Below, piece by piece: positions 3,411-26,606 of a stretch of 33,415 nucleotides of DNA (position 1 is the stretch's first letter; each line of letters starts with the position of its first letter). Below the pieces are notes generated by a model, which was given only the letters and a program-made list of their open reading frames with translations, was not told the origin of the DNA and made no database searches. Both the position numbers and the translations under genes were made by a program. This DNA comes from a virus. The DNA lies in the IMG/VR virus record IMGVR_UViG_3300041418_000099, positions 1 through 33,415 of that record, one strand, 5' to 3'.

Positions 3411-4097
3411 CTAGAACCACCAAACATAACTGCAGGAGAGCGTTTCGTTCCGATAGCGCCGCCCGTAGGTCGTAAAGACATTCACGAGCCCTCTGGACCA
3501 CGCGAACTCGATGGAGTTCTTGTACGTTATTGTCGGGCACTTGATGAGCCAACTGAATCCCGCCACCGCCATGTATCCGGCGTCGGCGTGGTCGGCGTTC
3601 ATCACCGGACTTCCGAGCGGGATGGCCGGCGGCGGTTTCGGCTTACAGCGCGGCGCGATGGCCTCCTCCGGCGTCACCTGCACCAGCGGCGCGTAATAGA
3701 CCCGTCGGAATGTCGGCTGAGAGCCGTAGAGCCCGCCGCCGATGTGGAAGAACCGCACCGGATGCACCACCAGCAGAAGCGGCACCTCAATCTCGCCGGA
3801 GACGACTTTGGCGGGCGTCGATAGATGTTGCGCGCCGGAATAGACGACGGTCGCATTGAACGCTTTATTGGAATATTGCACGCCCGTCATCAGCGAGAAC
3901 TTCCACGCCAGCGGAACATCAACCAGCGCCGAGCCCATCGCCGACGTGAAGTAATAGCGGTGGTACGCCGCGTCGAGCGGGTATTGCAGACCTCCCGAAT
4001 ACTGCACGCCAGGTCCGAGTCCGAAGTCCACTTGGGCCGCCAGCGGGACCGCCGCCAGCAACCCGGCCAACAGACACCACGTTAAATATTTCTTCAT
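3411..4097 (-). CDS. Secreted outer-membrane beta-barrel-like protein
   Basis: 228 residues with a classic signal peptide (MKKYLTWCLLAGLLAAVPLAAQ, cleavage likely after AAA or AQ). The mature part alternates polar and aromatic residues typical of a small beta-barrel, with many Gly, Tyr and Phe, and ends in YVWWF; a C-terminal Phe is the usual insertion signal for the BAM machine. The pattern GLGPGVQYSGGLQY resembles PorT/OMP_b-brl-type proteins. Strong AAAGGAGG site. A phage-made barrel could block receptors for other phages or alter the envelope; this role is inferred. It also argues for a Gram-negative host. Confidence 0.65.
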   Translation of the reverse strand: MKKYLTWCLLAGLLAAVPLAAQVDFGLGPGVQYSGGLQYPLDAAYHRYYFTSAMGSALVDVPLAWKFSLMTGVQYSNKAFNATVVYSGAQHLSTPAKVVSGEIEVPLLLVVHPVRFFHIGGGLYGSQPTFRRVYYAPLVQVTPEEAIAPRCKPKPPPAIPLGSPVMNADHADAGYMAVAGFSWLIKCPTITYKNSIEFAWSRGLVNVFTTYGRRYRNETLSCSYVWWF

Positions 4098-4300
4098 GTT
4101 ACCTCCTTTGCGCTTTTAGGGATTCGTATCAGCGGACACCAACGCGGGAAGCGGCGCGGGTCGTTGCAGAAGCGATACTTCATCAGGCTTTGCTTTTGGG
4201 CCGCCCGTGAGCATTGATATTGCGGGGCCTCTCTCGCTCCGAACACATAGATTCGGAATGGGCAGACCAGCGGGCACTCGATGATGATGGCGCGGCTCAT
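4094..4300 (-). CDS. Cysteine-containing hypothetical protein
   Basis: 68 residues, ATG with GAGGAAA upstream and an ATGA overlap into the barrel gene. Five cysteines are spread along it, including CPLVCPF near residue 9. Many Arg and Pro residues follow (DPRRFPRWCPLIRIPK). No family recognised. Confidence 0.55.
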   Translation of the reverse strand: MSRAIIIECPLVCPFRIYVFGAREAPQYQCSRAAQKQSLMKYRFCNDPRRFPRWCPLIRIPKSAKEVT

Positions 4301-4307
4301 GGTTTCC

Positions 4308-4403
4308 TCACAGTGTCAGCAAGTACAGCAGGAACAGCCCTGCCGCTATCAACATCAGCGTTCCGAGTGTTCGCAGTTCGCTCCCGACCTTTTCGTCTTT
4401 CAT
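4308..4403 (-). CDS. 31-residue membrane peptide
   Basis: A short ORF starting MKDEKVGSELRTLG and continuing into one membrane span (TLMLIAAGLFLLYLLTL). It has a strong AAGGAGA site seven bases upstream and starts one base after the stop of the previous gene. The charged N-terminus and hydrophobic C-terminus are typical of tiny phage membrane proteins. Confidence 0.6.
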   Translation of the reverse strand: MKDEKVGSELRTLGTLMLIAAGLFLLYLLTL

Positions 4404-4883
4404 TTATTCTCCTTCGACCTCATCTTCTTCGGCTTCTCCCAAAGGACAGCGAGTCCAATCTCCGCCACACTTTTCGAGTATCACTTCCCTTTCCTTGCGA
4501 GTCACTTTGGCATCATGGGGCATGACCTTCTTCTGAGGCGCGGCCAGGATGAGAGTGCGTTTCTCACGAAAGGCCACGCAGTCTGTGCATAGACAATTCT
4601 TCCAATAGTCATCGACTGTCGGGCACCCATCCGAGATTAACTCATCCAGCGCCTTCTCGCGCTCCTCGTCCGCGGGCGCGGGTGGCTCGGCCAGTCGCTT
4701 CTCGATGTGCGCCAGGCGTTCCATGAGTTTGCTTTGGAGATAATCCGCTTCCCAGCTGTCCCTGGAGTCAAGTTGGTCGGAACCAGCTACCCCGGCGGCG
4801 AAGATAGTCGCCTCTGCCAATTCAACCAGCGTCATCTTGTTCTCGTGGGCAATGATTCTCTGTTGCCACTTCCACGTCTTCAT
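4404..4883 (-). CDS. Hypothetical protein with CxxC motif and shared LAHIEKRLAEP segment
   Basis: 159 residues from an ATG after GAGGAGG. The first half is helical (TLVELAEATIFAAG) and includes LAHIEKRLAEP, shared at DNA level with the gene at 1575-1850. The second half has CPTVDDYWKNCLCTDC and a late CGGDWTRCPLG, enough cysteines for one metal site. The C-terminus is acidic. Function unknown. Confidence 0.7.
   Translation of the reverse strand: MKTWKWQQRIIAHENKMTLVELAEATIFAAGVAGSDQLDSRDSWEADYLQSKLMERLAHIEKRLAEPPAPADEEREKALDELISDGCPTVDDYWKNCLCTDCVAFREKRTLILAAPQKKVMPHDAKVTRKEREVILEKCGGDWTRCPLGEAEEDEVEGE
4684..4716. repeat. 33-nt perfect direct repeat, copy 2 (other copy 1711-1743)
   Basis: Identical to 1711-1743, in frame; see that entry. 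Confidence 0.9.
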
Positions 4884-5065
4884 GGCTTCCTCCTCTCTGG
4901 CCATTCGGACCCGGCATTGTGATAGGCCATTTTGACCATTCTGGTTATGCGGTTCTTTTGTCCATTAAGGTCATGCCGCTTACAGAAGTGGACGGTTAAT
5001 CCCGTAGGCCTGTCCGTCCGGCATCCGCACGGCTCGATGGCGATACGGTCCTCAAATCCTCTCAC
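4880..5065 (-). CDS. Small Cys/His protein, GTG start
   Basis: 61 residues starting with GTG behind a strong GGGAGGGG site; the GTGA overlaps the upstream stop. The pattern IEPCGCRTDRPTGLTVHFCKRHD places Cys, Cys, Cys and His suitably for a small zinc site. Similar short C-x-C...CKRH proteins occur in phages without known function. Confidence 0.65.
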   Translation of the reverse strand: MRGFEDRIAIEPCGCRTDRPTGLTVHFCKRHDLNGQKNRITRMVKMAYHNAGSEWPERRKP

Positions 5066-5400
5066 TTTCCCCTCCCTTCCCTCTTGGCGCGGTAGTCGAG
5101 CGCGGCGCGGAGGATGGCCCTAGCCGACGGCATAGAGGGGTCATAGGAAGTTAGCCCCGACTCATCGGTGAAATGAGCCTTCTCCACGGCCTCCAGCAAC
5201 GGACGAGCCCGCTCCAGTTCGGCCTTGAGTTTTCCAATCAATTGCGCCTTTCCTGCTTCTCTGTTTAGCACCTCGATGTGCTCGCCCCGTAGCCGCTCGT
5301 AGTCGTCGAGGATATCCACCAGTTCGTCCCGGTCCTCAAACTCCTCGATGTTGCCCTGAAGGACTATCCGCTTCAGTTCCTTAATCTGCTCAGGTGTCAT
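5062..5400 (-). CDS. Coiled-coil hypothetical protein
   Basis: 112 residues from an ATG after AGGAGGG; the ATG overlaps the stop of the Lar-like gene. Residues 5-70 are strongly helical and charged (ELKRIVLQGNIEEFEDRDEL, then a Lys/Glu stretch). The C-terminus ARAILRAALDYRAKREGRGK is basic. No enzyme motif. Confidence 0.65.
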   Translation of the reverse strand: MTPEQIKELKRIVLQGNIEEFEDRDELVDILDDYERLRGEHIEVLNREAGKAQLIGKLKAELERARPLLEAVEKAHFTDESGLTSYDPSMPSARAILRAALDYRAKREGRGK

Positions 5401-5576: not shown

Positions 5577-5845
5577 TTCTTCCCCTTCCCCGGCCCAGGC
5601 GTCGGCTCGTCGGGCAGGGCTTCGATTAAAAAATGAAGACCTCCATCGAATGTTGCCGCCGAGAAAAATTGAGATAATTTAGCCTTATTTTTATCCACCT
5701 TCGCCGCCGCTTCGAGGATGCGGTGAAGCAATTGGTATTCTGCCTCATCCTCAGGAAGCCACAACCCTCCATGTTTGTTTGCCAAGCGTTCATAAAAGTC
5801 GGCCCATATCTCAAACCGTTTAATTGCGCTGTTTAGTTTGCTCAT
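5573..5845 (-). CDS. Hypothetical 90-residue protein
   Basis: ATG with AAGGAG site and overlap with the preceding stop. Helical N-terminus (SAIKRFEIWADFYERLANKH), a central LHRILEAAAKVDKNKAKL, and a Pro/Gly-rich tail (PTPGPGKGKK). No family recognised. Confidence 0.65.
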   Translation of the reverse strand: MSKLNSAIKRFEIWADFYERLANKHGGLWLPEDEAEYQLLHRILEAAAKVDKNKAKLSQFFSAATFDGGLHFLIEALPDEPTPGPGKGKK

Positions 5846-6372
5846 GGCTTAATCTCCTTCAGCGTCTTGATTCGGCGCTGGACCCAGGCCTCGATTTTCT
5901 TACTGGCGGTGTAGGCGGCGTCGTAGGCGGCGGCGGCGTAGGCGGCGGCGTAGGCGGCGGCGGCGGAAGATGGGTCTTGCAGCCACGCCTTCGCCGCCTC
6001 GATGGCCGCTCTTGGCCGTTTGTCGTCGGGGTTCTTCTTCTCGAATATCGGCAGGGCCAACTCGGCGGCGTAAATAGCCAGGGCCACGCTGTCGGCTTTC
6101 GTCCACTCCCACGCCTTCACAACCCGCATCTCGGACCAGACCTGCTTGTCGCTCTGCGCCAGGTGTTTCCCGCGCACTTCTACCTTGGCCATAACCTCGC
6201 AATTGACGTATTGCATCGCGTCGATGGCCTGCTCTGAGGCATGGAATCCCGACTCGCACATCTTGAGTTTGCCGGGGTGCTTGTGCCATGTACCGATGGG
6301 CCACGGCCCAAGTTTTCCGCTGCCGGACACCAGCCCGGCCTTCATGGACTTCCATAGATAAGTTTTCATCAT
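5842..6372 (-). CDS. DUF7666-type phage protein with Ala/Tyr repeat tail
   Basis: 176 residues. The N-terminal third (KLGPWPIGTWHKHPGKLKMCESGFHAS) resembles the small phage family with the core MCexGFHA (DUF7666-like), whose function is unknown. Residues about 135-155 are an alanine/tyrosine tract (SSAAAAYAAAYAAAAYDAAY) encoded by a GGCGGCGTA-type short tandem repeat, suggesting a stiff helix that can change length by slippage. The start overlaps the upstream stop (ATGA at 6369-6372). Confidence 0.65.
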   Translation of the reverse strand: MMKTYLWKSMKAGLVSGSGKLGPWPIGTWHKHPGKLKMCESGFHASEQAIDAMQYVNCEVMAKVEVRGKHLAQSDKQVWSEMRVVKAWEWTKADSVALAIYAAELALPIFEKKNPDDKRPRAAIEAAKAWLQDPSSAAAAYAAAYAAAAYDAAYTASKKIEAWVQRRIKTLKEIKP

Positions 6373-12649: not shown

Positions 12650-12755
12650 GGCGCGATTTAAAGCGGCGATTGCCAACGCTCCGATGGGCTTATGTTGTAC
12701 CCCGTTGTCAACGGTGCCTTGCGGCCCCAGCCATCGGCTACGATTAATTCGCGCC
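12650..12755 (-). ncRNA. Three-way-junction leader RNA candidate
   Basis: Nested inverted repeats: GGCGCGATTTAA at 12650-12661 with 12744-12755 (11 of 12 paired); CCGATGG at 12681-12687 with CCATCGG at 12731-12737; CCGTTG at 12702-12707 with CAACGG at 12709-12714; and a side hairpin at 12662-12680. On the minus strand a GCC-GCAA-GGC tetraloop also forms. It lies 42 bases before the first SD-led gene, where a riboswitch-like or antitermination element would be expected. A different strand or role is possible. Confidence 0.5.
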
Positions 12756-12790
12756 CTCAAATAGAGAGGCGGACCCGCGCCCGCCGCCCC

Positions 12791-12807
12791 GAGGTGTTTT
12801 GAGGTGT
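12791..12807. repeat. GAGGTGT direct repeat, one helical turn apart
   Basis: GAGGTGT at 12791-12797 and 12801-12807, spaced exactly ten bases, in the otherwise gene-poor stretch 12760-12883. It could be an operator. The same stretch has a small hairpin (CGCTC/GAGCG at 12834-12848) and is GC-rich near 12769-12790; nothing else is seen. Confidence 0.3.
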
Positions 12808-12883
12808 CACCGGCTTATGAACTTTTCGGTCTCCGCTCTTTATGAGCGTCCGACTCGTTCCCTATCCGGTCGTGATGTTGCCG

Positions 12884-13057
12884 TTACAGCGTGACCGTTC
12901 CGGGACTCTCAGGGACGCGCCCATCGAAGTCTGTGCGATGGGTTCTGGCCCCTGCGCGGATACGTCTGTCGTTGACTTGCGGCATATCTTTTAGACAGGC
13001 TAGGCTCGACCCCGTGGCCGCCGGCTCTTCCTGTCTGCTCATCATCTTGTCTATCAT
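12884..13057 (-). CDS. Possible leaderless 57-residue ORF
   Basis: Reads MIDKMMSRQEEPAATG at the start and ends VPESPGTVTL. Its ATG coincides with the start point expected from the promoter at 13064-13092, so the mRNA could be leaderless. There is no ribosome site. The DNA also holds hairpins (CCCATCG/CGATGGG at 12920-12942; AGACAGG/CCTGTCT at 12993-13036), so the stretch may be RNA rather than protein. Confidence 0.3.
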   Translation of the reverse strand: MIDKMMSRQEEPAATGSSLACLKDMPQVNDRRIRAGARTHRTDFDGRVPESPGTVTL

Positions 13058-13063
13058 GGCATC

Positions 13064-13092
13064 AGTATAAAACTCATTAAAACGAATAGCAA
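13064..13092 (-). promoter_or_regulatory. Leftward promoter for the early operon
   Basis: On the minus strand TTGCTA, 17 bases, TATACT: five of six -10 matches and ideal spacing. Transcription would start near 13057 and run into the leader and the early genes. Confidence 0.65.
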
Positions 13093-13096
13093 GTAA

Positions 13097-13144
13097 AAAG
13101 ATTTTTCTATGTCGTTGATACGGCGATGGTTATAAAAAATCTTT
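13097..13144. other. 10-bp inverted repeat in the divergent control region
   Basis: AAAGATTTTT (13097-13106) and AAAAATCTTT (13135-13144) are perfect complements with a 28-base spacer. They lie between the leftward promoter and the two rightward promoters. A repressor operator is likely; a hairpin in a transcript is the alternative. Confidence 0.45.
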
Positions 13145-13173
13145 CGAGGGGACAGAAGGCGGTGGCGGTTTTT

Positions 13174-13201
13174 TTGACGGCAGTTCTGGCACCCCGATAA
13201 A
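13174..13201 (+). promoter_or_regulatory. Rightward promoter 1 (Y RNA / rsr)
   Basis: TTGACG, 16 bases, GATAAA; expected start near 13208. Weaker than the next promoter, which it overlaps functionally. Confidence 0.45.
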
Positions 13202-13208
13202 AAAGAAC

Positions 13209-13237
13209 TTGCAAAATTTATCGACGTGTGTTATAAG
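13209..13237 (+). promoter_or_regulatory. Rightward promoter 2 (Y RNA / rsr), extended -10
   Basis: TTGCAA, 17 bases, TATAAG, with TGT directly before the -10. Start expected near 13244, about 45 bases upstream of the first Y RNA. The layout (TTGC-type -35, 17 bp, TGT) resembles the recT promoter at 10908-10936. Confidence 0.7.
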
Positions 13238-13288
13238 AATTGCGAGAGACGAGATGAGAAAGCCAAGAACAATTCTTTTATGAATTCA

Positions 13289-13537
13289 AAGGGCTGGCGT
13301 AGGGGTGGCATACTTCAATGCAAATCTTAAGTCGGTGGTTCGATTCCACCTGTTCGTTTCGGCGAACATGGCGCAGTGGTAGCGCGAAGATACGAAGGCC
13401 GCGCCGATGAGGGTCGATGTAGTGCCAAACTCCTCGTCTCATCGCATCGACCTTTACGGATGGCGTAGCCGGGGAATCCTTCGCTTGAAACAAAGGCCCT
13501 GGCGATTGTTCCTCCGTTGTTCCGCCCTTGCTTTTTT
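13289..13537 (+). ncRNA. Y RNA 1 (YrlA-like) with permuted tRNA-like domain
   Basis: An outer helix AAGGGC (13289-13294) / GCCCTT (13524-13529) is followed by six U (13532-13537), a likely 3-prime end. Inside the 5-prime strand is motif copy A (13295-13316); its stem continues as GGGGTGGC with GCCGCGCC (13302-13309/13398-13405, one mismatch) and CTTC/GAAG up to the tRNA-like core at 13324-13391. A second arm (GGTCGATG/CATCGACC, 13412-13452) and a complete second motif module (copy B, helix ACGGA/TCCGT, 13456-13517) branch off before the 3-prime strand TGTTCC (13518-13523). Bacterial Y RNAs bind Ro60 by a stem of this kind and PNPase by the tRNA mimic. Ends are inferred. Confidence 0.75.
13324..13391 (+). 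other. Circularly permuted tRNA core within Y RNA 1
   Basis: Order: anticodon-stem strand ATCTT (13324-13328), five-base variable loop ending C, T-arm GGTGG-TTCGATT-CCACC (13334-13350), acceptor 3-prime strand TGTTCGT (13351-13357), UUCG loop, acceptor 5-prime strand GCGAACA (13362-13368), T8, G9, D-arm GCGC-AGTGGTA-GCGC (13371-13385), one base, then AAGAT (13387-13391). Acceptor 7, D 4, anticodon 5 and T 5 pairs; A14, G15, G18, G19, A21, C48, T54, T55, C56 and A58 are all in place. There is no room for CCA, so it is a mimic and not a tRNA gene. Confidence 0.9.
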
Positions 13538-13546
13538 AATGCATCA

Positions 13547-13647
13547 GACGCGTGGCGTAGATGGCGGTTACTTCGCCTGTGGAGCGTGAAGGCGGACGGC
13601 GAAAGCCGTTGCGCGCATACGTTCCCGCTATCGTTTGTTCCCGCGTT
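13547..13647 (+). ncRNA. Y-like module C, Ro60-site motif without tRNA-like domain
   Basis: Helix GACGCG (13547-13552) / CGCGTT (13642-13647) encloses motif copy C (TGGCGTA) opposite GTTTGTTCC (13633-13641), then GATGGCGG (13560-13567) pairs with CCGCTATC (13625-13632). The inside holds an ACGGC-GAAA-GCCGT hairpin (13596-13609) rather than a T-arm and D-arm. It may be a separate small RNA or part of a longer transcript with Y RNA 2. No terminator or promoter separates it. Confidence 0.6.
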
Positions 13648-13664
13648 GAAATATTCGCCAATGA

Positions 13665-13783
13665 GACGAGTGGCGTAGGATGCGGATACTTCGTATAACA
13701 ACGATTGCAGGTTCGAGTCCTGCCGCGCCGCCGGGCGCGTAGCCTAATGGCAAGGCACCTCCGCGTCCGCTGATTCCCTCGTC
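13665..13783 (+). ncRNA. Y RNA 2 (YrlA-like) with permuted tRNA-like domain
   Basis: Helix GACGAG (13665-13670) / CTCGTC (13778-13783); motif copy D opposite GCTGATTCC; then GGATGCGGA (13678-13686) with TCCGCGTCC (13760-13768). The apical domain is again a permuted tRNA: T-arm GCAGG-TTCGAGT-CCTGC (13707-13723), acceptor helix CGCGCC/GGCGCG with a GCCG loop (13724-13739), T8, A9, and D-arm GCCT-AATGGCA-AGGC (13742-13756). A15-T48 replaces the G15-C48 of Y RNA 1, a covariation of the Levitt pair. It ends 30 bases before the rsr start codon. Confidence 0.75.
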
Positions 13784-13813
13784 ATAAATATCTCGCACGG
13801 AGGAGGAAAGGAA

Positions 13814-15337
13814 ATGACGAGGTTCAACACCACGACGAAAGGCCGGAACACTTCGGCCTCCAAAGCCCCGACGGTCAACTACGAAGGCGCGCCCGCCTAC
13901 ACGCTCGAAGCGAAGGCGGAGTTGTATGCGCTGGCCGTCACGAGTCTTTTGAGCGACAAGTTCTATGCGACAACCGAAGCGGAACTGGAGCGCCTCACGC
14001 GGCTCGTGCAGAGCGCCCCGCCGGAGTTCACGGCGCGGCTTGCCGTCTATTGCCGTGAGTCGATGTGGCTCCGCTCAATCCCCATCATGCTACTGGCCGA
14101 ACTCGCACAACTACACAGCGGCGACGACCTCGTGCGACGGGTCGCGGGCCGCGTCATCCGGCGCGTCGATGAGTTGACGGAGACGCTCTCATGCTACGCG
14201 CTTCTCAACCCGCGCACCGGAGCCAAGCAACTCTCGAAGATGTCCCACCAACTGCAACTCGGGCTGGCCGATGCGTTCGGGCGATTCGACGAGTATCAAT
14301 TCTCTAAATGGGCCGGTGCGGGCAAAGGCATCTCGCTCCGCGATGTGATGTTCCTCTGCCACCCGAAGCCGACAGCCGAGCGTGAGGCGCTCTACAAGAA
14401 AATCGCCGCCAACGAACTCGGCGCCGCCTATACGTGGGAATCGGAACTCTCCGCGAAGGGCAACAACCGCGAGACGTGGGAAGCGTTGCTGGACTCCGGC
14501 AAGGTCGGCTATATGGCGTTGCTCCGCAATCTGCGGAACATCCTGAGCGCCGGCGTTTCGAGCGCGCACGTCGAGCAAGTCTGCGCCCGGCTCGGCAACG
14601 AAGAGGAAGTCATGCGCTCCCGCCAGTTCCCGTTCCGTTTCTTCTCGGCCGCGCGGGAATTGTCGGCAATGGATGGATTGAAGTTCGACCGCCGGGTCGC
14701 GGAGGCTCTGGAGCAGGCGATGACGGTCGCCGCCCAGAACATCAAAGGCATCGACACTGACGACCGCGTGATGCTGGTCTGCGATATCTCCGGATCGATG
14801 GACAATGCGCTGTCCTCCCAATCGAAGGTCAAACTCTATGAGGTCGGCATCGTCATGGCCTCTCTGCTCAACACGTACTTGAAGAACCCGAAGGTCGGGC
14901 TGTTCGCCGACCGGTTCCAACTCGTGAACCTGCCGCGCGCCGGGGTCCTGGCGAACGCGGCGCACCTCTCGAAGATGCAAGGCACGCTCGGCGGCTCAAC
15001 GAACGGATATCTGGCACTCAAATTCCTGCTCCAGAGCAAAGCCGAGTTCGACAAGGTCATCTTCTTCACCGACTGCCAATGGTGGGACAGCGATCCTCGC
15101 TACGGCTACGGCATCGTGCATGAGTCCGCAACGCTTTGGGCCCAATATCACGCGCAGTTCCCCGCCGCTCGCGGCTATTATATCGACCTCGCCGGATATG
15201 GGACGACGCCCGTCCGCATCGACCGCGCCACGGGAATGTCATTCATCGCCGGATGGAATGAGCGGGTGTTCGAGTTGGTGGACCGCGCCGAGAACGGCTC
15301 GACGGCTATCGCTGAGATAGAGGCGATGGAACTCTGA
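13814..15337 (+). CDS. rsr: Ro60 orthologue, TROVE domain RNA-binding protein
   Basis: 507 residues, a typical length for a complete bacterial Ro60. Residues about 25-310 form the TROVE HEAT-repeat ring that binds Y RNAs on its surface and ends of damaged RNAs in its hole; landmarks are LAVYCRESMWLRSIPIMLL, LSKMSHQLQLGLADAF, and MALLRNLRNILSAGV. Residues about 318-500 are the vWA domain with an intact MIDAS: DISGS at 324-328, T396 in GGST, and D420 in FFTD. Ribosome site GGAGGAGG. The neighbours upstream are the two Y-like RNAs. Known Rsr proteins work with PNPase in RNA decay and rRNA maturation, and help stress survival. A phage copy may steer host RNA decay; that is inferred. Confidence 0.92.
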   Translation: MTRFNTTTKGRNTSASKAPTVNYEGAPAYTLEAKAELYALAVTSLLSDKFYATTEAELERLTRLVQSAPPEFTARLAVYCRESMWLRSIPIMLLAELAQLHSGDDLVRRVAGRVIRRVDELTETLSCYALLNPRTGAKQLSKMSHQLQLGLADAFGRFDEYQFSKWAGAGKGISLRDVMFLCHPKPTAEREALYKKIAANELGAAYTWESELSAKGNNRETWEALLDSGKVGYMALLRNLRNILSAGVSSAHVEQVCARLGNEEEVMRSRQFPFRFFSAARELSAMDGLKFDRRVAEALEQAMTVAAQNIKGIDTDDRVMLVCDISGSMDNALSSQSKVKLYEVGIVMASLLNTYLKNPKVGLFADRFQLVNLPRAGVLANAAHLSKMQGTLGGSTNGYLALKFLLQSKAEFDKVIFFTDCQWWDSDPRYGYGIVHESATLWAQYHAQFPAARGYYIDLAGYGTTPVRIDRATGMSFIAGWNERVFELVDRAENGSTAIAEIEAMEL

Positions 15338-15364
15338 TGGGCCGCGCAAAAAGGAAACTGACAT

Positions 15365-15580
15365 ATGAGCGAACCGAAACTATGCCCGTTTTTGGTCATG
15401 GCCTATTGGCTTGGACAACTAACTAAAATTGAGGGGTTAGACCTTGACTCTTTCTGTCGAGAGGACAAGTGCGCCATGTGGCGGAAGAATTGGCACGTCA
15501 CTAAATATTCAAAACCGCCCACCGTCCTGCCTATTGGATGGGAACCTGTCTTTTTCTGTGGCCTCGCGGGGGAGCCCTAG
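15365..15580 (+). CDS. Small four-cysteine protein downstream of rsr
   Basis: 71 residues (MSEPKLCPFLVMAYWLG ... FCREDKCAMWRKN ... FFCGLAG). Four cysteines in the pattern CPFL ... C-x4-CAMW ... CGLA suggest a zinc or iron-sulfur site; small proteins of this pattern are frequent but uncharacterised. It lies 27 bases after rsr on the same strand and may be part of the same transcript. AAAGGAAA site at a long distance. The stop is 13 bases from the convergent tail-fibre stop; no clear terminator is seen between them. Confidence 0.65.
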   Translation: MSEPKLCPFLVMAYWLGQLTKIEGLDLDSFCREDKCAMWRKNWHVTKYSKPPTVLPIGWEPVFFCGLAGEP

Positions 15581-15592
15581 GCGATTCTGCGG

Positions 15593-16561
15593 TTAGGCCG
15601 ATAAGCGCACAAAAATGGCTGGGATCGGCGCCGCCGTGATGAGGGTGGGGGATGACGGGAATGTCCCGGGTAGAGCACCGTAGGTCTGCGCTACGTACAG
15701 ACCGCAGTTCATGGCCGTGCCGAGAGCGTTCGACGTGCCGAGTACGTTGATGACGCCCGCCACCGGGATGCAGTAGATGGCCGGGGTAGCCGCGCAGACG
15801 ATGACGAGCCAGCAGAGCGTGTTGACCGCTAGGGCCTGGCTAATCGTGATGGTCTTGGCTCCGGTTGAGGTCACGTCTATTGTCCCCGCATCTAGGAGCA
15901 GGCTGCCCGGGTAGCAGTTGCCGCCGTCCGCGTAGATTCCCAGCCGCGCCGTGGTCGTGCTGAGGGTTGAAACGTAGACCCCGATCCGGTCCAGGGTGAT
16001 GGCTTTCGGGCTGAGGAAAGGCATCGCGTACATACGGGCCGCCACGAGGGCCGTACCAGAGAGGGCCGTGCCCGAACGCGGCGAGGTATACCAGGCCTCG
16101 TAATTCGTAACCCCATAGTGACGGTAAAAGTTCACGTCCGGGTTGCGCGTGTCAGATAGCCGCGAATCGTTCCCCTGGCAGATCGTACCCGCCCCCGTCC
16201 CAAAGGACTCCCGGCTGTGCCGGTGGTCGGCCCGCGCCACGGACGCGCTAGAACCCTCGGCCGCGTAATCCCCCGGAGCACTCGCCCCGGCCGTAACGCC
16301 TACGGTATGCAGGGCATTGCCGTGGCTCGTGGGCGTCCGCGAATCCGAGAGGCGGCTGTCCGCTGTCACGACTGCTGTGCCGGTGACATCGGCCGGAGCA
16401 TGGGAATGCGCCGTGGGCGTCCGTGCGTCGGAAAGACGGCTATCCCCCGTCCCGACTTTTCCGCGTTGTCCCCCGACCGCTTGGTTTATCATGTTCTGCA
16501 ATTTTCTGGACAGCGCTTCCACGTCCTGCTTGAGCGCGATTCGTTTTCCTGATACCGGCAT
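15593..16561 (-). CDS. Tail fibre / receptor-binding protein candidate
   Basis: 322 residues. Residues 1-30 are a coiled coil. Residues about 35-140 have repeats of DSRLSDARTPTAHSHA type, the common phage tail-fibre shaft repeat, ending in VARADHRHSRESFGTG. The C-terminal half is a beta-sandwich with ARLGIYADGG and PGSLLLDAG, also seen in the repeat protein at 29834-32515, and is likely the receptor-contacting part. It is the last gene of the structural operon, where fibres often lie. Confidence 0.75.
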   Translation of the reverse strand: MPVSGKRIALKQDVEALSRKLQNMINQAVGGQRGKVGTGDSRLSDARTPTAHSHAPADVTGTAVVTADSRLSDSRTPTSHGNALHTVGVTAGASAPGDYAAEGSSASVARADHRHSRESFGTGAGTICQGNDSRLSDTRNPDVNFYRHYGVTNYEAWYTSPRSGTALSGTALVAARMYAMPFLSPKAITLDRIGVYVSTLSTTTARLGIYADGGNCYPGSLLLDAGTIDVTSTGAKTITISQALAVNTLCWLVIVCAATPAIYCIPVAGVINVLGTSNALGTAMNCGLYVAQTYGALPGTFPSSPTLITAAPIPAIFVRLSA

Positions 16562-23442: not shown

Positions 23443-26049
23443 TTACGCATATTGATTGATGACCTTTTCGAGCCCGTGCTTTTGCAGGAAATATGACGGC
23501 ACCCCGGCCCGTCTATATCCCTCGTATTCGTATGTCGGCTCGGAACGCTGATGAACGGCCCGCACATCGACGCAGACAGCCGCCTTCCATCCGGCCTCTT
23601 TGAGCCGGAGAAAGAAGTCCATGTGTTCCCACTCAACGAGGATTTTATCATCCCACCGCACGCTGTCAAATACCTGACGTTTGGCGAGGAAGAAGTTCGG
23701 CGCCTGGTCGGCGTACTTGAACAGCACCCCGCCGGTCTCGGAGACCGCCCCGCCAGCGCTGACGCGGAGCAGGAGCGCGCCGTTGCGCTCGAACCGCAGA
23801 CCATTCGCATAGGTCTTGCCGCCGTAGAGTTCGAGGCTGTTCTCAAGCCCGAGCAACGCGGCGACGACGCCGAGTTTCGAGTCGGAGTCCAGCACCTCTT
23901 TCATCTTCAGCAACCCGTCGCCCGGAGGGATGAGAATGTCATCGTCCATCATCAGCACATAGTCCTCGGTGATGGCTTTGACCATCGCGTTCCGGCCGGC
24001 AGAGATGCCGGAGTTGAACGGGAGCCGGATGACGGCGTGGCCCTGCTCCATGAGTTTCGCGTAGCGGTACGCTTTCGCGTCGCTCGGCGTCGGCCCGTCG
24101 TCGGCGATATAGATTTTATACGGCAACGGGCAATTCTTTTCGATTGTGTCGAGCGCCCGCATCAGCACCGGCTCGCGCATGAACGTCTTGATAGCGATGG
24201 CGATTTTCCCGGCCCATGCGTTCGGCTCCACGGACTTCTGCGACTCCTTCATCAGCGCGGCGTTGTTCAGGATTCGCCCGCGAATGCTGGAGGACGAGAT
24301 GCCCCGCGTGTACGGGAAGAACACGACCTTGCCGCCGAACGTCTCGACGAACTCCGCGCCGGGACAGGCGTCCCAGTCGTCGCCGTGAACCAGATAGTCG
24401 GGATGGATGTCGAGTTTCTGGAAGTCCTGTATCGGGTTCTTGTCGTTCTGCGTGATGACCTCATCCACGAGGTCGAGCGAGGCGACGATTTCCTTCCGCT
24501 CGGCGAACGGGATGATAGGTTTCGCCTTGTAGCGGGCCGCCGCTTCATCGGTTAGCACTCCGACGACGACTCGCCCAAGACGACGGCAGTTGCGGAGGAT
24601 GTTGAGATGCCCGGCGTGGAACAAGTCCCACACGCCGCCGACGAACACCGTCCGGTTATCCTTGAGGAAGTTCTTGTCGATGGCCTCGCAGTCGAGCCAA
24701 TACTTGTATTCGCGGTCCGGCGTCCGCCAGTCTTTTCCGTAGCGCTCGGCGAGATACTTCTCCGTCGGTGCCGGCAGATAGACTTCCATCCCACGATAAG
24801 TGACCGGCTCCAGTTCTTTGAACAACTCGGCGGAGAACACATGAGGCAGGAAGTCGCGGTTCTCTTTGCCCGCCTGCTCGGGACCCCAAGCGCCGTGCCA
24901 CCACATATCGCCGCGCACGCCGAAGAAGAACAAATCGAACTTGATTCTATCGCCGCCCGCGTTCTTCCAGAACGACACCTCCAGCACGCGCGGCCCGCGC
25001 CGCCAGTCTTTATAATGCTCGAATCCGGCGGCGATAAAGTCTTTCTTCAGCGCATCCCATGATTTGCTGTTCTCCGGCGCGATGCCGATATCAATGTCCG
25101 GGTCCCACGGCATGAGTTTCCGGTCGCGGAACACGCCGAGACAGGTCCCGGCCTCCAGCCACCACTTGACGCCGTGGCGGTTGAGGATTTCGATGGCCGT
25201 CGCCAGGATAGGGTCTTTCGGGTCAATCTCCACGCGCTCCTCCATGTCGAAGAATGAAATCGGGTTCGTCGCGTTCCAGTCGTTCCACGACTGCCAGACG
25301 CCCCACTTCTGCCCGAACAGCCGCCACCCTTTCGGGCGGTTCCGATAATGGTCGTACTCTTTGCGGTCAGCGTCTTTTCCGTGGTCGTGCGTTGCCGTGA
25401 CCTCGGGCACATAGGCGACCCGCCATTTCGTGCGCGTCTTGAGCGACCAGAAGAAGTCGCAATGCTCCAGCGCGGTCTTGAACTGCGCGTCCCATGGATT
25501 CGACTCCCACGCTTCGCGCCGCATCAGGAACACATTGAGAATGAGGTCGCACTTGCAGAACCTGATTGACGGCTTCCCGGTCGCTCCGGCCGCGAGCCAC
25601 TCCGGACGAATGAGTTTGGTGACATAGAAATTATCGTCCTGAATCTTCATCATCGCTTCGTAGTGGCGCTCGCCGACTCCCGGCTGAAGGAGATGACCGC
25701 CAGCGAGCCCGATGGTTGGCTCTGCGTCCAGCACCTGACGGAGTTTCTCGATGACGGTCTCCTCCGTGAAGAGGATGTCGTCCTCGCATACGAAGATGTA
25801 TCGGAACTGCGCCGGTATCTGCTCCAGCGTCGCGTTCCGCACGCCGCCCACCCCGAGGTCAAACGGATGGCGGACGAGCGTCGAGCACGTTCGTTTGCAG
25901 AACGGCCGGAGCGCCGCCTGCTGGTCCGCGTGCCCGTTGTGCCCGATGAAGATGTCGATGTCCGGGTAGAACCGACGGATGGACTCGACGCACCGCTGGG
26001 TGAGATCGTCCCGGAGGAAGGCGGTCACGAGGATGCAGGTGTCGCTCAT
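23443..26049 (-). CDS. Four-domain glycosyltransferase / LicD-like / cytidylyltransferase / glycosyltransferase fusion
   Basis: 868 residues, start overlapping the methyltransferase stop by ATGA. Residues 1-255: GT-A glycosyltransferase with EDD at 89-91 as metal motif. Residues 285-455: LicD/FKRP-like phosphotransferase with WLEAGTCLGVFRD and WDPDIDIGI. Residues 465-595: cytidylyltransferase with VGGVWDLFHAGHLNIL (HxGH at 478-481) and GISSSSIRGRI. Residues 615-868: second GT-A with IYIADDG at 647-652 and MDDDI at 701-705. In known pathways a cytidylyltransferase makes CDP-choline, CDP-glycerol or the like, and LicD moves the phospho group to a sugar. Here the whole path may decorate tail or host glycans. 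Substrates are unknown. Confidence 0.8.
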   Translation of the reverse strand: MSDTCILVTAFLRDDLTQRCVESIRRFYPDIDIFIGHNGHADQQAALRPFCKRTCSTLVRHPFDLGVGGVRNATLEQIPAQFRYIFVCEDDILFTEETVIEKLRQVLDAEPTIGLAGGHLLQPGVGERHYEAMMKIQDDNFYVTKLIRPEWLAAGATGKPSIRFCKCDLILNVFLMRREAWESNPWDAQFKTALEHCDFFWSLKTRTKWRVAYVPEVTATHDHGKDADRKEYDHYRNRPKGWRLFGQKWGVWQSWNDWNATNPISFFDMEERVEIDPKDPILATAIEILNRHGVKWWLEAGTCLGVFRDRKLMPWDPDIDIGIAPENSKSWDALKKDFIAAGFEHYKDWRRGPRVLEVSFWKNAGGDRIKFDLFFFGVRGDMWWHGAWGPEQAGKENRDFLPHVFSAELFKELEPVTYRGMEVYLPAPTEKYLAERYGKDWRTPDREYKYWLDCEAIDKNFLKDNRTVFVGGVWDLFHAGHLNILRNCRRLGRVVVGVLTDEAAARYKAKPIIPFAERKEIVASLDLVDEVITQNDKNPIQDFQKLDIHPDYLVHGDDWDACPGAEFVETFGGKVVFFPYTRGISSSSIRGRILNNAALMKESQKSVEPNAWAGKIAIAIKTFMREPVLMRALDTIEKNCPLPYKIYIADDGPTPSDAKAYRYAKLMEQGHAVIRLPFNSGISAGRNAMVKAITEDYVLMMDDDILIPPGDGLLKMKEVLDSDSKLGVVAALLGLENSLELYGGKTYANGLRFERNGALLLRVSAGGAVSETGGVLFKYADQAPNFFLAKRQVFDSVRWDDKILVEWEHMDFFLRLKEAGWKAAVCVDVRAVHQRSEPTYEYEGYRRAGVPSYFLQKHGLEKVINQYA

Positions 26050-26606
26050 ATCTGCTTCACCATGACGCCGATGCCGAGATTCGGGATGGTCATCTTCCAC
26101 GGGTCGGACCAGCACGAGAACTTGATGAACGTCGCGTCGGATTTATCCTCATACTCGCGGCGCAGGTATTCCCAGAATTGCATCGCCCCCGGCTCCTTCT
26201 TGTTGTCAACATCGTGGAATGCGATGAGCCGTGGGGCGTTCGGTCCCCATAACTCATAATCGGCCTTGATGCCTTCATAGGTGTGGTCGCCGTCAATGAA
26301 CAGCAGGTCGATGGGCGCGTGCCCGCTCAAGTCGAAATAATCCTGAAGCGTTAAGGGGTTGTGGCTGTCGCCGAGAATATCGGGCTTGAAGATGCCGTCG
26401 GTTTTCAGGTCCACGCCGAAGTGCCGGGCGTGCATCGCCGCCTCGTAGAACCGCTTCTGGCGGTTGTCCCACGTGCCGATCTCGACGACAACCGGGTCCG
26501 TGATGTCCCGGTGCGCGAAATAAGCCGCCGCGAATTCGATGAACATCTGCCACTCGTTGCCGTTCTGAAGCGGCATCATGAAGTCGGAGAAAATCCTCAG
26601 GTACAT
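26046..26606 (-). CDS. Class I methyltransferase (Methyltransf_24 / CmcI-like)
   Basis: 186 residues. VVVEIGTWDNRQKRF is a SAM-binding motif I; DLLFIDGDHTYEGIKADYELW followed by RLIAFHDV is the signature of the Methyltransf_24/cephalosporin hydroxylase-like family, often linked to sugar or lipid modification. It starts with a TAATG overlap and an AAGGG site. It precedes the four-domain enzyme and likely acts in the same modification path; that is inferred. Confidence 0.75.
   Translation of the reverse strand: MYLRIFSDFMMPLQNGNEWQMFIEFAAAYFAHRDITDPVVVEIGTWDNRQKRFYEAAMHARHFGVDLKTDGIFKPDILGDSHNPLTLQDYFDLSGHAPIDLLFIDGDHTYEGIKADYELWGPNAPRLIAFHDVDNKKEPGAMQFWEYLRREYEDKSDATFIKFSCWSDPWKMTIPNLGIGVMVKQI

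Follow-up and report, generated by a model that had tools for sequence, protein, structure and literature searches.

The window analysed here is the whole of a 33,415-base virus record from IMG/VR (IMGVR_UViG_3300041418_000099), which may itself be a fragment. On its + strand a gene for the ring protein Ro60 stands behind an array of Y RNA modules, in which we predict four Ro60-site modules, here called a to d, three of them (b, c and d) intact. The family and fold of the protein, the covariation of the RNAs and their genomic linkage together strongly support a locus for a Ro60-Y RNA particle. Ro60 is the only + strand open reading frame (ORF) to which a family could be given, the other long + strand ORFs overlapping minus-strand genes, and the surrounding genes that match phage families (RecT, an exonuclease, RusA, tail and neck proteins) all lie on the minus strand. 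An earlier reading made from the sequence alone (the sequence-only reading) had placed the array in a phage control region, which agrees with its position in a stretch without assigned genes, flanked by minus-strand blocks of phage-family genes. Neither a near search with window positions 9000-33415 nor a distant search with the array gave a match in 50,697 phage records. Comparison Ro60 loci are denoted by L-numbers: L001-L004 are near-identical phage contigs, L012 is CcrColossus, L015 is Xanthomonas phage 10KY502B, L026, L035 and L091 are further phage or viral loci, and L103-L182 are 80 Bacteroidota chromosomal loci.

The Ro60 protein matches the Pfam families TROVE (PF05731; E 1.1e-32, 114.3 bits, above the cut-off of 23) and, in its C-terminus, vWA_Ro60 (PF25045; E 1.1e-6, 29.2 bits, above the cut-off of 27.7), as well as phrog_850, annotated as 'RNA-binding protein' (4.4e-49). 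In a 38-protein alignment D324, S326 and S328 (DxSxS), T396 and D420 are invariant, as the metal ion-dependent adhesion site (MIDAS) requires. By sequence, the solved structures closest to it are two TROVE proteins, 9kop and 9l5y (E 2.7e-21). An AlphaFold model (38 window and locus proteins) has a predicted local distance difference test score of 90.8 and a predicted template modelling score of 0.90, and aligns over nearly its full length with the Ro ring structure 2i91 (VIA-align Z 32.7, 452 residues, root-mean-square deviation 2.8). The structures that match best are those of Ro, with RNA or apo, of human Ro60 complexes, of 9kop (Z 27.3), of Thermus phage phiLo Ro60 (9l5y, Z 25.2) and of Deinococcus Rsr (2nvo, Z 19.5), the absence of other families from the fold-search list being given no evidential weight. 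The Pfam matches, the invariant residues and the match of the model to Ro structures thus bear out the claim of a complete Ro60 with TROVE and vWA domains and an intact MIDAS.

That some phages carry Ro60 genes, as the sequence-only reading had also said, is confirmed by matches in 249 named phage records. To these named phage proteins the window protein is at most 34% identical at 80% or more protein coverage among the best 60 of the 249 (one record reaches 40% over 65%). The closest non-phage relatives found are in Bacteroidota chromosomal loci (best segments 40-47% identity, among the best 80 of 552). A quick protein tree of 82 rows, built with Shimodaira-Hasegawa-like approximate likelihood ratio support only and serving as a pointer only (it keeps L062, a bad-frame row with 38 stops), groups the window and L003 with the phage contig L035 (97), within a larger group (95) that also includes 27 Bacteroidota rows. 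We note as a separate observation that these 27 rows fall among phage sequences in this tree.

The array was delineated by repeats and by covariance models. A repeat search finds four copies of a 32-nt element, at 13290, 13456, 13548 and 13666, whose core TGGCGTAG stands at 13295, 13461, 13553 and 13671 and occurs once more elsewhere in the 33 kb; in whole-contig shuffles this core has a mean count of 0.76, and five copies were reached in 1 of 100. The Rfam YrlA family (RF02553) matches module d over the full model at 13670-13788 (44.0 bits, E 3.2e-8) and module a at 13326-13390 over model positions 23-86 (27.8 bits, E 0.0015). A covariance-model check for YrlA therefore returns two matches, but neither reaches the Rfam gathering score of 69. 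The YrlA matches of relatives are likewise below gathering, and 20 further loci hold no YrlA match at that level. Since the window has no gathering-level Rfam match, we built a covariance model of our own, R1, from a training alignment (A5) that includes modules b and c but not d, and searched the window with filters off (Table 1); b, c and d match it over its whole length. The sequence-only reading had seen two YrlA-like RNAs directly upstream of Ro60; a Y RNA array before the gene and on its strand stands, but it is made of four Ro-site modules, and the first of the two RNAs, from 13289 onwards, is split. The 5' part of module a carries an AAGGGC stem strand, a UGGCGUA Ro site, UACUUC and a tRNA-like T-arm, acceptor and D-arm region at 13326-13390. 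The YrlA alignments give a and d a tRNA-like head (T-arm, acceptor-like hairpin and D-arm), which b and c lack by T-loop pattern. A candidate reading of two tRNA genes was rejected, ARAGORN finding no ordinary tRNA.

Table 1. Features of the Ro60 locus in the window; segments A and B are the stretches whose order differs in L003.
Feature	Coordinates	Strand	Evidence or remark
Candidate sigma-70-like promoter, TTGCAA-17-TATAAG	13209..13237	+	read by eye; hexamers same in L003/L004
Leader hairpin, 5' arm	13242..13253	+	3' arm at 13433-13445 in the window; split by segment A
Segment A, 135 nt, with 5' part of module a	13273..13407	+	134/135 identical to L003
Module a, 5' part, split copy	13289..13407	+	YrlA 27.8 bits; R1 13.8 bits
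Segment B, 109 nt, with leader hairpin 3' arm and module b	13408..13516	+	108/109 identical to L003
Module b, short hairpin, no tRNA-like domain	13456..13517	+	R1 56.3 bits, E 5.3e-17; descriptor 30.5
Module a, 3' end (UUGUUCC loop part and GCCCUU stem strand)	13517..13529	+	parted from 5' part by segment B; contiguous in L003
Module c, branched hairpin, no tRNA-like domain	13548..13646	+	R1 57.9 bits, E 1.7e-17; descriptor 32.5
Module d, tRNA-like domain, YrlA type	13666..13782	+	R1 51.9 bits, E 1.2e-15; YrlA 44.0 bits
Ro60 (TROVE ring and vWA), 507 aa	13814..15337	+	Pfam, PHROG, alignment, predicted fold
71-aa ORF	15365..15580	+	3' of Ro60; no Pfam or PHROG match

Comparison with relatives gives the modules a common plan. 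Above a basal stem come an unpaired, bulged U, two pairs (G-C and N-N') and an internal loop in which CGUA stands opposite GNYUGUU. The next helix has 9 nt in its 5' strand; beyond it lie UACUUC (UCCUUC in module b), which is unpaired, and a head that varies in length. A descriptor built on this plan, run on 175 of 183 sequences after exclusion of eight near-identical or own loci, scores at least 20 at 354 places on the Ro60 strand and nowhere on the opposite strand, and a looser version finds two opposite-strand places at 22 or more. The pairing is further supported by modules collected through sequence anchors alone (5' GNCGTAG then a CTTC word, 3' GNYTGTTNC), with complementarity ignored; 113 modules in 68 loci, 109 of them distinct, were obtained in this way, 13 near-identical or distant loci having been excluded. 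All 13 variable stem positions form Watson-Crick or G-U pairs in 72 to 98% of these modules, above the maximum of 200 partner shuffles in every case. The N3-N8 position pairs in 98% (55% when shuffled) through CG, GC and UA types, and the weakest positions, both in helix 2, still exceed their shuffle maxima (position 4, 72% against 58%; position 3, 77% against 53%). The G2-C9 pair, which the anchors fix, and the first helix 2 pair, which equals the shuffles, are for these reasons uninformative. An alignment of 44 rows, chosen by the descriptor and thus biased towards the structure, has 92.6% of cells paired against 57.4% when shuffled and 44-51% when slid, with a covariation score of 0.931 against 0.230, and unaided RNAalifold predicts the same two helices and leaves UACUUC unpaired. 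CGUA and the hexamer stand 9 nt apart in 291 of 299 descriptor modules, and 267 have UACUUC as the hexamer, the descriptor having fixed the TTC letters and not the distance. With a basal stem and a conserved internal loop, beside Ro60 and on its strand, the modules have the features by which Y RNAs are broadly defined.

Arrays of this kind are common beside Ro60 genes. We searched with R1 92 phage and viral Ro60 loci, left from 103 after removal of 11 near-identical or own loci; several of the 92 gave training rows and some are near duplicates. All 172 matches at E <= 0.05 are on the Ro60 strand, and at E <= 1e-3 at least one module is found in 68 loci and at least two in 43, up to seven in CcrColossus and in L091. 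The bacterial sample, the best 80 of 552 Bacteroidota-type chromosomal loci by score and therefore a biased one, holds 323 R1 matches at E <= 1e-3, with 300 of 300 among the matches listed on the Ro60 strand. The descriptor finds modules in 77 of these 80 loci (at least two in 70, one in seven, none in three), with arrays of up to eight, and in 33 of 94 viral loci. The sequence-only reading had called a compact multi-RNA Ro60 locus unusual; this does not hold, since a module occurs in 68 of the 92 viral loci and two or more in 43, and since such arrays also occur in Bacteroidota chromosomal loci. The same module consensus is shared between the window and these chromosomal loci, but the window array lies upstream of Ro60 whereas the bacterial arrays are mostly downstream (65 of 80 downstream only, by descriptor). 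A T-loop pattern finds at least one tRNA-like head in 19 of the 94 viral loci and in 73 of the 80 bacterial ones.

Two further observations concern arrays and heads elsewhere. Orphan arrays without Ro60 were sought with a 16-base pattern, too narrow to exclude them: of 14 viral contigs chosen by the 5' motif alone, the sole one with R1 matches (four) is also the sole record with TROVE, and the other 13 have neither an R1 match at E <= 0.1 in the stretch searched nor TROVE in the record, so that the 5' word is presumably there by chance. In L015 a tRNA-Thr annotated at 2325-2392 lies inside a Y RNA match at 2322-2451 (R1 46.6 bits; YrlA 46.7 bits). The site also passes the Rfam tRNA model (33.3 bits, cut-off 29), and the annotated gene is perhaps a mis-annotated Y RNA head.

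The near-identical contigs L003 and L004, whose Ro60 is 98-99% identical to that of the window, carry the same four modules, but the order of the two segments is reversed: A precedes B in the window and follows it in L003 and L004. Between window 13273-13516 and L003 4460-4703 there is no net gain or loss, and one T is shared at the junctions. L001 and L002 carry the array unchanged in the order of the window, and the L004 array is that of L003. In L003 all four modules match R1 fully (56.5, 54.8, 51.6 and 38.0 bits, filters off), the last being the intact module a at 4586-4715, which is missed under default filters. A leader hairpin is likewise contiguous there at 4428-4498 (about 13 pairs with one bulge, -22.6 kcal/mol, z -2.66, a value reached by 3 of 200 shuffles), so that in the window the exchange interrupts module a as well as the leader hairpin. 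Two independent stems intact in L003 would hardly arise by chance, and we infer that the segment order of the window is probably the derived one. Whole-array folding energy was tried as a test of the ancestral order and set aside as uninformative, the window order being slightly lower. An assembly artefact, judged from the contigs alone, is unlikely because only one base is shared at the three junctions, where no repeat could account for it, and each order is present in at least two contigs.

The split could also be taken as a sign of decay, the array with its broken module a and leader hairpin being a degrading passenger from bacteria without function in this phage. Module a is indeed split relative to L003; yet Ro60 is intact with its MIDAS residues, three modules score high, an identical array is kept in L001 and L002, and Ro60 recurs across the named phage records, which makes decayed cargo a very improbable account.

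Ro60-Y RNA particles are known from bacteria. In Deinococcus, a Y RNA bound to Rsr tethers PNPase and redirects it to structured RNA (PMC8058203, PMC8394870, PMC4726728). DusA and TruB both act on YrlA, a tRNA mimic whose head resembles the D, T and acceptor arms (PMC8394870). In Salmonella two Y RNAs lie beside Ro60 in the RNA repair operon rsr-yrlBA-rtcBA (PMC7790460). The locus resembles these Rsr/Ro60 and YrlA/YrlB systems of Deinococcus and Salmonella, including the RYPER particle with its PNPase, in the Ro60 fold, the adjacent Y RNAs, the basal Ro site and the YrlA-type tRNA-like head. It differs from bacterial Rsr/YrlA in having four modules, among which d alone is a full-length YrlA match and both YrlA matches are sub-gathering, and from the Salmonella operon in that the window record has no rtcB match. 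It also resembles the Ro60 genes of mycobacteriophages, CcrColossus, crAss-like phages and Thermus phage phiLo (9l5y), which are phage-encoded and many of which adjoin Y RNA modules. Borg elements (PMC11208441) and a Vibrio jumbo phage (PMC7765460) also have TROVE proteins. Both Ro60 and Y RNAs were already known from phages, and the locus is a clear new instance of a machine of known kind.

We judge it fairly probable that the locus encodes a phage Ro60 ribonucleoprotein in which alternative Y RNAs act as adaptors linking the ring to host RNA enzymes. The Y RNAs and Ro60 would be produced together, apart from the leftward genes and probably early, by analogy with crAss001, whose TROVE gene is among those transcribed less than 10 min after infection (PMC10136315). 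Each Y RNA would be held by Ro60 through the internal-loop stem, with its variable head as the adaptor. The tRNA-like heads of a and d could engage host tRNA-binding enzymes or PNPase, and the enzymes so engaged would steer structured host RNA or damaged RNA to decay or repair. The hairpin heads of b and c may gate the ring, and redundancy in the array would let the lineage persist with one Y RNA split by segment exchange. The partner enzyme is perhaps PNPase; the sequence-only reading had suggested that the phage may re-target host RNA decay or else protect its RNAs.

Several results weigh against the adaptor reading, beginning with the sub-gathering YrlA scores given above. Module a is broken in the window, where a fragment scores 13.8 bits with R1. 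Single-sequence folding is unremarkable for b (z -1.20), c (-1.32) and a (-0.40), and since this energy supports d only (z -3.77, a value reached by 0 of 200 shuffles), the argument for b and c is one of covariation; the corresponding values in L003 are -2.78 for d, -2.66 for the leader, -1.92 for c, -1.76 for b and -1.71 for a. Nor does the whole-array folding energy give an advantage to the intact order (window -220.8, L003 -218.0 kcal/mol). Among the 92 phage and viral loci, 24 have no R1 match at E <= 1e-3, and mycobacteriophage Astraea, unlike the window, has no R1 match better than E 0.24 beside its Ro60. The module consensus is therefore not universal, and the YrlA-like domain upstream of Astraea Ro60 (36.1 bits), in the absence of a significant R1 match, implies that other Ro-site types exist. 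The promoter is also weak. A consensus scan lists no + strand promoter-like site in 12650-15650, although its rule demands T in the last position, so that the single candidate read by eye, ending in TATAAG, goes unlisted; the claim that the locus has its own promoters is weak, and a version with several promoters was rejected for want of support. Finally, the 33,415-base record holds no RtcB (PF01139) match and no RNase PH-domain match, and a partner of the PNPase or RtcB type would for this reason come from the host or from an unrecorded part of the phage. If there is an enzyme partner, it is probably host-derived.

Neighbouring genes in other loci bear on the partner as well. In L026 an RtcB gene (3989-5164; PF01139, 5e-109) stands directly behind Ro60, with three R1 matches before Ro60, and RtcB is present in 2 of the 13 records searched; by analogy, these cases suggest that phage Ro60 may be linked to RNA repair. 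A Pfam scan of 20 of 53 neighbour ORFs in 9 phage contigs gives RtcB once, RNase_H_2 three times and Prok-JAB twice, and no partner gene is common to most of these contigs within that scan. The L026 neighbourhood would also fit a role in counter-defence, in which tRNA-like Y RNAs bound by Ro60 serve mainly to divert anticodon nucleases and other defences that cut tRNA, as decoys, or to rescue tRNA from them, with PNPase uninvolved. Two of the four modules match the tRNA-like region of YrlA, the Salmonella study proposes that the tRNA-like domain of YrlA, itself no substrate, may competitively inhibit an anticodon nuclease (PMC7790460), and TROVE proteins of some jumbo phages are treated together with RNA repair (PMC7824862). 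Modules b and c, however, lack a tRNA-like domain, this contig has no RtcB match, and the YrlA head, which resembles D, T and acceptor arms (PMC8394870), therefore has no anticodon loop for these nucleases to cut. We regard the decoy or rescue role as doubtful.

The hairpin-only modules b and c, which have no evident effector head, could instead point to a ring that acts mainly as an RNA chaperone or store, sequestering or protecting phage RNA or misfolded RNA, with the Y RNAs as competitive gates and no enzyme partner. Ro60 binds misfolded RNA at a site that partly overlaps that of Y RNA (PMC4726728). The recurrence of tRNA-like heads in viral and bacterial loci, on the other hand, suggests a partner, and the chaperone account seems to us unlikely.

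Returning to Y RNAs as adaptors between Ro60 and host enzymes, we raise tentatively, and with limited confidence, a more specific version: phage Y RNA arrays may be exchangeable adaptor sets for one Ro60 ring. A fixed chassis (CGUA, the 9-nt strand, and UACUUC as a second contact for Ro60 or a common partner) would be shared while the heads alone differ, and recombination in or near the chassis would permute, split or replace heads between near-identical phages. If this were true, the array would be a fast-changing target-selection cassette in the RNA conflict between phage and host. What may be new here is the conserved UACUUC at a fixed distance together with the segment exchange, judged against a literature covered in part, in which no description of such arrays was met.

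These results turn a one-off reading into a defined family, in which a covariation-backed module detects Ro60-linked Y RNAs, hairpin-only ones included, and works where Rfam YrlA scores below its own threshold. Loci with multiple Y RNAs are common in this Ro60 group, and their modules can be rearranged between close relatives. What the variable heads and the conserved UACUUC do thereby becomes directly testable.

We further note features outside the array and the Ro60 gene. The 71-aa ORF has tblastn matches in L001, L023 and the own records, with a 35% version in L002-L004, L024 and L029 and none elsewhere; because it is absent beside Ro60 in the other loci compared, it is probably not part of the Ro60 system. 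The region 15365-16487 behind Ro60, which includes this ORF, varies among the near-identical contigs while Ro60 is nearly constant. A stretch at 5842-6372 on the minus strand encodes DUF7666 with an Imm5-like stretch. Within the structural gene block, an 890-aa protein encoded on the minus strand at 23443-26115 combines two family 2 glycosyltransferase stretches with LicD and a cytidylyltransferase-like domain.

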